From NCBI GenBank assembly GCA_040757335.1, contig JBFLXB010000005.1:1-64000 (forward strand): a stretch of DNA of 64,000 bases, given 5' to 3'. This DNA comes from Nitrospirota bacterium. GTDB taxonomy: Bacteria; Nitrospirota; Nitrospiria; 2-01-FULL-66-17. The stretch's first letter is position 1. Each line of letters opens with the position of its first letter. This document shows positions 53,937 to 61,212 of the stretch, in pieces. The position numbers were made by a program, and so were the translations under genes. The notes under the pieces are model-generated. The model was not told the origin of the DNA, made no database searches, and worked only from the letters and a program-made list of their open reading frames with translations.

Positions 53937-57081
<3,145 letters not shown>

Positions 57082-57082
<1 letters not shown>

Positions 57083-57110
57083 AAAGGCCCGGGCAATGCC
57101 CGGGCCTTTT
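57082..57110. terminator. Bidirectional terminator between guaA and the cold-shock gene
   Basis: AAAAGGCCCGGGC, loop AAT, GCCCGGGCCTTTT: a perfect 13-bp stem with A and T runs on either side, serving both convergent genes. Confidence 0.92.
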
Positions 57111-57127: not shown

Positions 57128-57328
57128 TTAGACCTTAACGACGTTCGCCGCCTGCAGCCCTTTCGGACCATTCACGATTTCGAACTCGACCTCTTGACCT
57201 TCGTCCAAAGTCTTGAATCCGTCACCTTGAATGGCTGAAAAGTGCACGAAGACATCGCTGCCTTGGTCCTGCGCGATGAAGCCGTAACCCTTGCTGCTGT
57301 TGAACCACTTCACTTTTCCTCTCGCCAC
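57128..57328 (-). CDS. Cold-shock protein, CspA family
   Basis: 66 residues: [20 protein letters not shown] with RNP1 (KGYGFI) and [10 protein letters not shown] with RNP2 (VFVHF). It is a single OB-fold nucleic-acid chaperone of standard length. GGGAGGTGAC precedes the ATG. It has a leader of about 140 nt with a terminator-like hairpin, suggesting control after initiation. Confidence 0.95.
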
Positions 57329-57385
57329 TTTCCGTCACCTCCCTTCCATCAGACTGACGCGGTGTTCTGGTACCGAGGCAACGGG

Positions 57386-57427
57386 AAAAAAAATGCCGCA
57401 GCGATTGGAGTGAAGAACCGCTGCGGC
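57386..57427 (-). terminator. Terminator-like hairpin inside the csp leader (attenuator candidate)
   Basis: On the minus strand GCCGCAGCG, a 15-nt loop and CGCTGCGGC form a perfect 9-bp stem followed by A and eight T. It lies between the csp promoter and the csp start, so if formed it would stop transcription before the gene. Confidence 0.65.
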
Positions 57428-57475
57428 TAACCCTTACCCTCGTCCGACCAACAACCCCCTCAAACGTCTGGCAAT

Positions 57476-57504
57476 TCTTATCATGGCGCGGACGGTGGTG
57501 TCAA
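57476..57504 (-). promoter_or_regulatory. Promoter of the cold-shock gene
   Basis: Minus strand TTGACA (57504-57499), 17-nt spacer, ATAAGA (57481-57476). The expected start near 57469 gives a leader of about 140 nt. Confidence 0.6.
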
Positions 57505-57647
57505 GCGCTCCGGCGCGAGGGATCCCGCCGAACGTCGTGCGGCGTAGGGGCCGCCCACGCGTTGAGGCGCGCGATCCCGCGGGATGCATGGACGAAGATC
57601 CCGCGCTCGGGTATGCTGAGTCGCACGATTCCCGGGAGGCGCTCGCG

Positions 57648-58772
57648 ATGGGCAAGCCGAACATCTTGGTGGTGGACGACGATCCCGCGGTGGGCGCGTT
57701 GCTCGCCGAAACCGCGACCGCGTCGGGGTATGCCACGGTGGTGGTGACAGACGGCGCGGCCGCGTTGGACCGCATCCGCTCGGGCGAATTTGCGCTCGTG
57801 ATCACCGACATCCGCATGCCGGGACTCGACGGGATCGAACTGCTCCGCCGGATCAAGGCGTTCGCGCCCGAAGTGGAGGTGATCGTGGTGACGGCCTTGC
57901 CGGACGTTGAGCGCGCGAGGGACATGATCCGGCTGGGAGCCTCAGATTTTCTCACCAAACCGTTTCGTTTGGGGGAAGTGCGCTCGAGCGTCACTCGCGC
58001 CATCGACAAACACCTGGCGTGGAGAGAGCGCTGGACCCAGCAGCAGGACCTCAAGGCGCAGGTGGAACGCCAGGCGCGCCAAGTCAGAGAGCAACTGGTG
58101 ACGGCCCAAGAACGGTCCGCCGCGCTGCGCGACCGCCTCGACACGTTACGCGCCGCGTACGACGCCACGATCGAAGGGCTGATGTTCGCCCTCGATTCCC
58201 GCGACCGCGCGTCGCTGGGACACAGCCAACGCGTCGCGGTGTTTTCCGAAGAGATCGCGAAGACGCTGGGAGTGAGCGGCGCCGAGTTGGAAGCCGTCCG
58301 GCACGGCGCCATGCTCCACGACATCGGGAATATCGCGGTCCCGGACGCGCTGTTGCAGAAAGCGGGCAAGCTGACCGAAGACGAGTGGCCGCACGTGCGC
58401 AAACACGCCGAGCAGGGGTATCGCCTGGTCCAGTCGATCCCCTCCCTGGGTCGCGCGGCCGAGATCGTGCGACAGCACCACGAACGGTACGACGGGACCG
58501 GCTACCCGCAGGGGTTGGCCAAGGACGCGATCGCGCTGGGAGCGAGGATTTTCGCGGTGGCCGACACCTTTGACGCCATGACGTCGCACCGACCATACCG
58601 CGACGTGTCGACGTATCAGGAAGTCTGCGCGGAACTCGCCGGCTGCACCGGCACGCAGTTCGATCCGTTGGTGGTCGATGCCTTCATGCGAATTCCTGAG
58701 ACCACCTGGACCGAGCTGCGGCGTGCGGTGGAGTTGGTGACGCGGCAGTGGAAGTCCGCGGCCGGCTTTTAG
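57648..58772 (+). CDS. Response regulator with HD-GYP domain
   Basis: 374 residues from ATG 57648 (GGGAGG upstream). The receiver domain (about 5-120) has NILVVDDDPAVGALLAE with acidic pocket, phospho-acceptor Asp in VITDIRMPG, and Lys in FLTKPF. A coiled linker (about 125-180) leads to the HD-GYP domain, with HDIGNIAVPDALL, HHERYDGTGYPQGL and DTFDAM. HD-GYP domains degrade cyclic di-GMP. HDIGN has Asn where HDIGK is usual; the metal ligands are kept. No partner kinase is adjacent. Confidence 0.92.
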   Translation: MGKPNILVVDDDPAVGALLAETATASGYATVVVTDGAAALDRIRSGEFALVITDIRMPGLDGIELLRRIKAFAPEVEVIVVTALPDVERARDMIRLGASDFLTKPFRLGEVRSSVTRAIDKHLAWRERWTQQQDLKAQVERQARQVREQLVTAQERSAALRDRLDTLRAAYDATIEGLMFALDSRDRASLGHSQRVAVFSEEIAKTLGVSGAELEAVRHGAMLHDIGNIAVPDALLQKAGKLTEDEWPHVRKHAEQGYRLVQSIPSLGRAAEIVRQHHERYDGTGYPQGLAKDAIALGARIFAVADTFDAMTSHRPYRDVSTYQEVCAELAGCTGTQFDPLVVDAFMRIPETTWTELRRAVELVTRQWKSAAGF

Positions 58773-58946: not shown

Positions 58947-60119
58947 TTAAGACGAAACGCGACGTGATGACAACATCGTGCCTACGTCTTCGCGCAATTC
59001 CTGCCATCGTCTTGCTGGCACGCTCATGAACGTGTCAACGACCTTCGGGTCAAACTGCGTGCCCGAGCAACGCTGTATCTCGGCCTTGGCGTGCTCGTAC
59101 GGCAGCGCGCGGCGGTAGGGTCGTTCCGAGGTCATGGCGTCAAAGGTGTCGGCCACCACGAAGATCCTTGCACCGAACAGGATATCCTCGCGACTGGCTT
59201 TGTTCGGGTACCCCAGACCGTCGAATCGCTCATGGTGGTGCAACACGATCTTGGCCGCGTCCTGCAGGAACGCGATGTCTTTGAGCATCTCGTAGCCGTA
59301 TTGGACGTGCCGGCGCATCTCCGTCCACTCCGCGTCGGTGAGTTTGGACGGCTTGCGGAGAATCGTATCCGGAACGCCGATTTTCCCGATGTCGTGCAGG
59401 ATCGCGCCGCGCTTGAGCGTCTCCAGCTCCGCGCCCTTCACGCCCAGCCGGTCTGCCAACTCGACGCTGTACACCGACACGCGCTGTGTGTGGCCCTGGG
59501 TTTCGTTGTCGCGGTAGTCGAGCGCCATGATGAGCGCGTCGATGGTGTCGTGGTAGGACTGTTCGAGCAACGTGAGGGTGTGGTCGAGTTCCTCGCGTCG
59601 CCGGCGCTCGAGCCGCAGGTGCTCGCGGATCTCGCGCGTCTGCTCGGCCACGCGCTGCTCCAGCGACCGGTGATACGCGCGATTCTCGACCAGGAGCTGT
59701 CGGCGTTCCAAGGCCTTCTCCACGTGGACGGCGAGTTCTTCGAGGTTGAACGGTTTGGTGATGTAGTCGTAAGCGCCCAGCTTCATGGCCTGCACCGCCA
59801 TCTGAGTGTCGGCGGCCGCGGTCAACATCACCACCGCGGTTTCCGGTCGGGTCTGGACCAGACGTTTGAGCAGATCAATGCCCGAGAGGCCGGGCATCAT
59901 GATGTCGCTGAGAACGAGGTGGATGGGTTCGCGCTCGAGAACTGCGAGCGCTTCATCCGCGCCGTTGGCGGTCCGGCACAGGTATCCCAAATGTGTGAGC
60001 TTGGTCGTCAACAGCTCGCGCACGTTGCGGTGGTCGTCGACGATCAAGATGCGCGCGGGCTCGTTCCGGATGTCCACTCGGCGTCTTAGTTCTGAAATTG
60101 AGGGAGTGCCGGGATCCAA
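58947..60119 (-). CDS. Response regulator with HD-GYP domain
   Basis: 390 residues from TTG 60119; GTG 60077 (start of VDIRNEPARILIVDDH) is an equally good start and neither has a strong ribosome site. The receiver has ILIVDDHRNVRELL, Asp in VLSDIMMPG and Lys in YITKPF. A coiled coil (about 155-195) joins the HD-GYP domain, which has the full HDIGKIGVPDTIL and HHHERFDGLGYPNK. It is a probable cyclic di-GMP phosphodiesterase. It is similar in layout to the convergent gene at 57648, so the two are likely old duplicates. Confidence 0.92.
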   Translation of the reverse strand: MDPGTPSISELRRRVDIRNEPARILIVDDHRNVRELLTTKLTHLGYLCRTANGADEALAVLEREPIHLVLSDIMMPGLSGIDLLKRLVQTRPETAVVMLTAAADTQMAVQAMKLGAYDYITKPFNLEELAVHVEKALERRQLLVENRAYHRSLEQRVAEQTREIREHLRLERRRREELDHTLTLLEQSYHDTIDALIMALDYRDNETQGHTQRVSVYSVELADRLGVKGAELETLKRGAILHDIGKIGVPDTILRKPSKLTDAEWTEMRRHVQYGYEMLKDIAFLQDAAKIVLHHHERFDGLGYPNKASREDILFGARIFVVADTFDAMTSERPYRRALPYEHAKAEIQRCSGTQFDPKVVDTFMSVPARRWQELREDVGTMLSSRRVSS

Positions 60120-60282: not shown

Positions 60283-60358
60283 GGGGCTGTAGCGCAGTTG
60301 GGAGCGCGTCAGACTGGCAGTCTGAAGGTCAGGGGTTCGATCCCCCTCAGCTCCACCA
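60283..60358 (+). tRNA. tRNA-Ala (anticodon GGC)
   Basis: A 76-nt cloverleaf. Acceptor GGGGCTG/CAGCTCC contains the G3-U70 pair that marks alanine tRNAs. The D arm is GCGC...GCGC. The anticodon arm TCAGA-CTGGCAG-TCTGA gives GGC, and the T arm is AGGGG-TTCGATC-CCCCT-like. CCA is encoded. Its part from the anticodon loop onward is duplicated at 61286. Confidence 0.96.
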
Positions 60359-60547: not shown

Positions 60548-60866
60548 ATGTTACCTAGAGTCGTCGAGTACCTCGAAGGAGAGCTCTCGCCGTTCGGGCG
60601 GTGGTTTGCGGCGCTCAACGCGCCGGCAGCGGCGAAGATCACCACGGGCGCTGTATCGGCTGGGCCAAGGCCACCGCGCCAACGTGAAGTCGGTCGGGCA
60701 AGGCGTCTCCGAATATAAAGTGGATTTTGGTCCGGGATATCGGATCTATTTCGGCCAAGAAGGGAACACGTTGATCATCCTGCTCGGCGGGGGAACGAAG
60801 AAGACCCAATCGCGCGATATCGACCTCGCCCATCGGCGCTGGGCGGCGTACAAGTCACGCAGGTAA
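60548..60866 (+). pseudogene. RelE/ParE-superfamily (HI1419/Gp49-like) toxin with a frameshift
   Basis: From ATG 60548 the frame reads VVEYLEGELSPFGRWFAALN then AAAKITT. The continuing toxin sequence (ALYRLGQGHRANVKSVGQGV, YKVDFGPGYRIYFGQEG, LLGGGTKKTQSRDI) is in another frame and ends at 60866. One extra G in the GGG at 60646-60648 explains the break. Restored, it would be about 105 residues, normal for the family. A sequencing error or programmed slip cannot be excluded. It pairs with the antidote gene 19 nt downstream. Confidence 0.7.
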
Positions 60867-60885
60867 CGATAAACGGGAGGATAAG

Positions 60886-61212
60886 ATGCCGGTCACACGA
60901 AGGTTCCGAATCACGGTCATGGAGCGGGCCGCCCGCGACGCGCGGTTTCGCCAGCACCTATTGACCGAGGCGATCAATCAACTCTTAACCGGCGATCTGC
61001 CCGCAGGCAAGGCGATGCTGCGCGACTACATCAACGCGACGATCTCCTTCGACCAGTTGGCGCACAGGCTCAAGAAGTCCAGCAAGAGCCTACACCGGAT
61101 GCTCGGCCCGCGAGGCAACCCGACCGCAGAGAACCTCTTCGGCATCATCAAGGCGCTCCAGGCGCATGAACGCGTGCAACTCCACGTGAAGTCGCAGCGA
61201 TCCGCCGCGTGA
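60886..61212 (+). CDS. Addiction-module antidote, HI1420-like helix-turn-helix protein
   Basis: 108 residues, ATG preceded by GGGAGGA. The DNA-binding region lies in FDQLAHRLKKSSKSLHRMLG followed by NPTAENLFGIIKALQAHE, the XRE-like fold of the antidotes paired with HI1419-type toxins. Toxin-first gene order is normal for this family. With the upstream toxin frameshifted, it may now only neutralise or repress. It lies inside the tRNA-bracketed cassette. Confidence 0.82.
   Translation: MPVTRRFRITVMERAARDARFRQHLLTEAINQLLTGDLPAGKAMLRDYINATISFDQLAHRLKKSSKSLHRMLGPRGNPTAENLFGIIKALQAHERVQLHVKSQRSAA

Follow-up and report, generated by a model that had tools for sequence, protein, structure and literature searches.

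The leader of the cold-shock gene csp in the 64,000-nt stretch analysed here (the window) carries a terminator-like hairpin, and our best explanation, in which as a whole we place about even confidence, is that it is one member of a conserved family of csp leader RNAs controlling cold-shock genes via transcription attenuation, with cold-shock protein (Csp) itself as the most likely input. As a member of this family, the window leader would have the hairpin, a long-range helix that is only suggestive and no detectable U-rich box. The hairpin, its conservation, the genes it precedes, the spacing to the promoter, covariation in the terminator helix and a weaker covariation in the long-range helix are observed by computation, and attenuation at the csp leader is likely. 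Csp feedback via the U-rich box is a best guess, while a cold-triggered refolding of the leader is unsupported.

The csp locus of the window

A sequence-only reading of the DNA had placed a 'good' minus-strand promoter about 140 nt before csp, followed by a perfect 9-bp stem and eight T with the features of an intrinsic terminator (Table 1). The promoter stands in part. The -35 hexamer is perfect, but the -10 matches the consensus at only 3 of 6 positions with a spacer of 18 and at 4 of 6 with a spacer of 19, and a sigma-70 promoter scan gave no entry for it. Judged by its sequence the promoter does look real, since the syntenic ortholog of the window csp (L007 in genome G002, with guaA and the HD gene alongside) keeps TTGACA...CGCCATGATAA(A/G)AA. 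The hairpin was described correctly, apart from the one A that intervenes before the T tract; between the promoter and the start codon a GC hairpin indeed lies directly before a U tract, and its 9 perfect pairs extend to 12 in the predicted fold.

Table 1 Features of the csp locus, with positions in the 64,000-nt window.
Feature	Position	Strand	Basis
-35 hexamer TTGACA	57499..57504	-	sequence; promoter core shared with syntenic ortholog L007
-10-like A/T-rich TAAGAAT, weak match	57474..57480	-	sequence
+1	near 57470	-	inferred from promoter spacing of relatives
5' strand of predicted long-range helix flanking the terminator	57431..57457	-	MFE fold
terminator-like stem-loop GCCGCAGCG-N15-CGCTGCGGC, 9-bp perfect stem	57395..57427	-	sequence; match to model R3 (other families only)
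single A between stem and T8	57394	-	sequence
U8 tract (T8) after stem	57386..57393	-	sequence; T tract in relatives' alignments A1 and A5
3' strand of predicted long-range helix, past the terminator	57361..57385	-	MFE fold
Shine-Dalgarno GGGAGGTGA	57335..57343	-	sequence
csp, 66-aa cold-shock domain protein, GTG start at 57328	57128..57328	-	ORF; PF00313 E 6.8e-31

By a strict criterion (at least 9 Watson-Crick pairs, a loop of at most 20 and T6) the hairpin is unique on both strands of the 64 kb, and when 57329-57647 was dinucleotide-shuffled 20,000 times, 2 of the shuffles contained such a hairpin. A generic terminator scan missed it because the loop limit of that scan is 8. The intergenic region is divergent, with csp on the minus strand and a response-regulator/HD gene on the plus strand, hence the hairpin cannot be the terminator of an upstream gene. 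Folding of the whole 137-nt leader is only slightly more stable than that of shuffles (z -1.25). The predicted long-range helix is only suggestive in the window leader: the flanks of the terminator pair at -34.7, compared with -27.6 in shuffles (z -1.70, p 0.067). No upstream stretch of the window leader pairs with the terminator 5' arm beyond chance (dG -13.5 against -18.8 for shuffles), and a U-rich box resembling AGUUUUUGU was absent by eye from 57428-57470.

Several features of the surrounding DNA were also recorded. The converging genes guaA and csp share, at their ends, one symmetric GGCCCGGGCAATGCCCGGGCC hairpin with A and T runs on either side (57081-57110). The genes at 57483-58772 (+) and 58947-60119 (-) are convergent neighbours of like response-regulator/HD-domain architecture, assigned by eye and for the first confirmed by a domain match. 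A tRNA gene (60283-60355) directly precedes two small adjoining ORFs (60606-61212) that by eye resemble a HigB/HigA-type toxin-antitoxin pair, the first having a sub-threshold Gp49 match and the second no match.

Leaders in the same genome and in its nearest relatives

Five matches to the csp protein were found in the window's own genome (G000, in which the window locus is L006), four of them true csp genes. The leaders of three of these four carry a hairpin and T tract at a similar position, and that of the fourth (L003) does not. The hairpin is present in two of the three csp leaders read in genome G001 and in neither of the two in G002. As the latter include L007, which keeps the promoter core and lacks the hairpin, there is direct evidence against conservation at the window locus itself. 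Conservation of the hairpin, the lack of which the sequence-only reading had taken to refute attenuation, thus fails at the syntenic ortholog and holds for three of the four true csp genes of the window genome.

Across distinct csp leaders of the same class, 24 of 51 have the hairpin with a T tract (L020 among the 24 being doubtful), in a sample skewed toward the best-scoring genes. A DNA search of 98 genomes with the window leader recovered only itself and nothing in the 97 relatives. Most of the window-class leaders tested for an antiterminator pair no better than shuffles. Two side observations concern these leaders: L003, L036 and L037 represent a second csp type within the window's family, with a conserved promoter region TTGACA..TATAAGC and a leader that lacks the terminator, and a small hairpin GGU..ACC was seen by eye upstream of the terminator in several leaders.

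Covariance models find the leader before csp and other genes

Two covariance models, neither containing gene information, were built from csp leaders: R1 from 18 aligned leaders of the same class (alignment A1) and R2 from 17 leaders of other classes. R1 found 48 places in 39 genomes among 295 genomes of the phylum (E<=0.01). Of 30 places examined, six are training copies; the other 24 precede csp (21), a DEAD-box helicase gene (two, L106 and L120) or TypA (one, L119). R2 gave matches in 170 of 395 genomes of the phylum (E<=0.05), in 32 of 297 genomes of the Desulfuromonas phylum (E<=0.01) and, weakly, in 18 of 193 genomes of the phylum of the Omnitrophota genome. Among 114 strong R2 elements read, 10 of which are training sequences, 109 lie upstream of csp, a tally that includes L151, where the contig ends, and L181, whose csp contains stops. 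Medium-score elements were read in 46 cases (38 genomes searched), with csp following in 31.

In total csp lies behind 140 of 160 R2 elements. The remaining 20 precede an unnamed family of about 130 aa (7), an RRM protein (3), S21 (3), a DEAD helicase (3), TypA (1), a small basic protein (1), a DUF47-like ORF (1) or nothing clear (1). A domain scan gave these assignments for the members it covered, and the others, including the DUF47-like ORF and the basic protein, were assigned by eye. Assignments are doubtful for the medium-score hit L319 and for L295, L321 and L225, in which the ORF is distant (214-293 nt). S21 and RRM proteins are of relevance to cold. BipA/TypA and DEAD helicases are described as cold-adaptation factors (PMC8313970). 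The layout that suggested attenuation in the window, a terminator within the leader of a cold-shock gene, is therefore kept far beyond the window genome and marks other cold-adaptation genes.

The strongest Desulfobacterota matches (E below 1e-5, L250-L265) have csp behind 15 of 16 loci, one with an internal stop, whereas csp is not the following gene for most of the weaker ones (E above 1e-5), as expected of chance, and these were set aside. The eight Omnitrophota loci read have csp in two cases and, by eye, a DEAD helicase in three. A pattern scan of species genomes for CTGCGGTTTTT before csp gave 30 loci, which by title belong to Nitrospirota (19), Nitrospinota (3), Methylomirabilota (2), Omnitrophota (2), FCPU426 (1), Desulfuromonas (1) and Catenovulum (2). 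The two Catenovulum loci look like chance, the 5' arm being missing by eye.

The unnamed proteins behind the element (L286, L295, L303, L317, L321, L324 and L211) are about 119-138 aa long and share invariant cysteines (alignment A7). The members scanned have no Pfam or NCBIfam match, and a search of solved structures gave no credible relative. At L181 and L252 the csp copies contain in-frame stops and the leader element still looks intact.

Anatomy of the common form

The common, Thermodesulfovibrionia-type form of the leader begins with GAAGUUUCAGA as its 5' strand, followed by the U-rich box AGUUUUUGU, the terminator and finally a second strand able to pair with the 5' end. In 102 of 159 elements TTGAC lies 32-35 nt upstream of the element start, and TANNNT occupies the -10 position in 44, a spacing by which the element starts at about +1. 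The T tract is conserved in every row of A1 and nearly so in A5, and for almost every csp element the start codon follows it by 40-62 nt.

The terminator helix covaries. In alignment A3 (98 distinct rows) 97.8% of cells are paired, 9 of 11 pairs have double changes, and double-change cells number 55 against 14.5 in shuffled alignments, a count biased by A3 having been fitted to this helix. The long-range helix joins the first 16 nt to a stretch 10-25 nt past the T tract, reaches p<=0.05 in 71 of 107 sequences and is recovered unaided by RNAalifold. It covaries partly: in A5 (101 rows) 82.7% of cells are paired and 50 cells have double changes, compared with 28.0 in shuffles, of which 1 in 500 reached that count, while the distinct double-change pairs number 6, below the 8.1 of shuffles.

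The long-range helix could be read as belonging to a structured mRNA 5' end, in which hairpin and helix protect csp mRNA or help it to be translated in the cold, termination being a minor matter. The helix spans the terminator and is possible solely in read-through mRNA, and some window-class leaders pair strongly between their flanks (for example L053, z -4.55), both of which speak for such a role. However, the conserved U tract directly after the stem is a hallmark of intrinsic terminators and would be needless for a mere protective fold. We regard this explanation as unlikely, although it is the most credible of the alternatives to attenuation.

The U-rich box AGUUUUUGU is complementary to the 5' arm and loop of the terminator: 94.1% of cells are paired, compared with at most 69.7% when the two are slid against each other, and the pairing reaches p<=0.05 in 79 of 108 sequences. 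No covariation was detected between box and arm (1 double-change cell, below shuffles). Over 97 rows the box has 8 deviating letters and its partner 17, and this greater constancy of the box suggests an additional constraint, for instance binding of a protein. Nearest-neighbour energies for 101 sequences favour the terminator over the candidate antiterminator by 4.5 kcal/mol at 37 C and by 5.8 kcal/mol at 5 C, an equilibrium comparison in which the terminator is favoured at every temperature tried.

These data bear on the idea that the leader is an RNA-only cold switch, in which an antiterminator fold prevails at low temperature and no protein takes part. The sequence-only reading had supposed such an alternative fold to win in the cold, and had proposed a search of relatives for a conserved anti-terminator pairing. 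A candidate for it occurs in the common form, which retains the box that can pair with the terminator arm, yet this pairing is invariant rather than covarying and is undetectable in the window leader. The proposed fold is unsupported, in that no antiterminator was detected in the window leader and energies favour the terminator in related leaders, slightly more so in the cold. An RNA thermometer working through equilibrium folding is rejected on these energies. A kinetic trap in the cold, with slow strand exchange, is compatible with them, and we consider the RNA-only switch in general a little less credible again than the structured 5' end.

Membership of the window leader

Membership of the window leader was assessed with a third model, R3, built from 14 leaders of other families only; excluding every sequence of the window's family avoids circularity. 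In the 3.56 Mb of G000, R3 gave only two matches (E 0.78 and 1.0). Both are csp leaders, and the second is that of the window, aligned through its hairpin half alone. Each match is weak by itself, but by our estimate it is unlikely to be chance that both precede csp. An R2 search of G000 gave no match.

Proposed mechanism

In the mechanism we propose, RNA polymerase would start just upstream and make a short leader, in which the GC hairpin and U tract would stop a fraction of transcripts, such that csp is made only through read-through. The U-rich box could compete for the 5' arm and loop of the terminator. Free Csp would bind the box and release the terminator arm, and transcription would stop. 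In the cold, stabilised RNA structures would titrate Csp away, allowing the box to pair with the arm and the regulon to be read through. The strand past the terminator would pair with the 5' end in read-through mRNA, with the Shine-Dalgarno staying free. Retention of the promoter-leader-terminator-gene arrangement over phyla and paralogs argues for regulated read-through; we infer such read-through, and likewise termination in vivo, the role of Csp as ligand and the direction in which it acts.

The U box resembles both the B. subtilis CspB (BsCspB) consensus and crystallised Csp ligands: a preference for GTCTTTG/C is described for BsCspB (PMC7825780), which also binds UUUUUU and GUCUUUA RNA, the crystallised ligands (PMC7704496). 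E. coli Csps are reported to relieve termination (PMC9765468), whereas B. subtilis CspB and CspD changed read-through at terminators by favouring termination (PMC8307031). As these effects are opposite, either sign is possible for the leader.

The relief of termination by E. coli Csps would fit a different scheme, in which Csp melts the terminator and so acts as an antiterminator in positive feedback, or in which the terminated leader of about 65-80 nt is itself the product, as an sRNA. The effect of B. subtilis CspB/CspD opposes the former. Against the latter, the element runs past the terminator into the back-pairing strand, and this, with the steady distance to the start codon, indicates that the element is part of the mRNA. 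We judge this pair of schemes very unlikely. An ordinary terminator or chance hairpin, for which the hairpin-free syntenic ortholog could be cited and against which stand the shuffles and the divergent region, is scarcely credible, as is ribosome-mediated leader-peptide attenuation: a Shine-Dalgarno and start codons precede the hairpin by eye in some window-class leaders, but a Shine-Dalgarno, start and open frame across the hairpin occur in just 8 of 114 elements, so it is not a general feature, and the frames of the window leader stop before the hairpin.

Relation to known systems

No family in Rfam release 15 covers the csp terminator leader. The window locus scores 76.4 bits with the cspA thermoregulator (RF01766), below the gathering score of 78, which is exceeded at two of eight loci (L011, 86.7; L002, 79.1); at L011 the alignment draws its score from the coding sequence and the csp 3' terminator. 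Searched alone against Rfam release 15, the leader (57326-57520) gave no cspA match up to E 5 and chance-level matches only. Likewise, nine common-form loci gave just sub-threshold cspA and chance-level matches at their csp leaders. The E. coli cspA thermoregulator is similar in being a long csp 5' leader thought to govern expression by temperature. It differs in that the window leader alone has no RF01766 match and in that the E. coli switch acts on translation (cited in PMC3738593), bearing out the earlier distinction between the window leader and a translation-level switch.

The B. subtilis cspB and cspC leaders are likewise csp 5' UTRs with conserved boxes (the cold-shock boxes), and suppressor point mutations map to them (PMC8307031); a terminator there is not mentioned in the parts of that article available to us. 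In E. coli, cspB and cspG too are held back by transcripts ending prematurely in the 5' UTR or ORF, a Rho-dependent process (PMC7815308), in contrast to the intrinsic-type hairpin and U tract found here. A literature search, covering titles and the starts of abstracts with few subscription journals, found no terminator leader shared by csp genes.

PyrR and TRAP control attenuators in which terminator and antiterminator overlap. The common-form csp leader resembles these protein-controlled systems in having a terminator, an upstream stretch that is a candidate for pairing with its 5' arm and proposed protein binding at that stretch, and differs in sequence, genes and proposed ligand, Csp binding here being putative. 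Attenuator leaders are thus already known, while the csp leader family and its regulon appear to be new.

Cold-shock control is known mostly from E. coli cspA and Bacillus. The recurrence of one leader design before csp in many little-studied bacteria suggests that the cold response is widely controlled by an as yet uncatalogued on/off switch. More tentatively, and with limited confidence, we propose that one attenuator RNA gauging free Csp, and hence unmet RNA-chaperone demand, may couple csp with a DEAD-box helicase, S21, an RRM protein, TypA and the unnamed 130-aa protein in Nitrospirota, Desulfobacterota and probably Omnitrophota and others. If true, these bacteria would gain a defined regulon, a testable autogenous Csp mechanism and a first clue to the unnamed protein family, and the leader would provide a simple set of parts for building a transcription switch that responds to cold or to chaperone.
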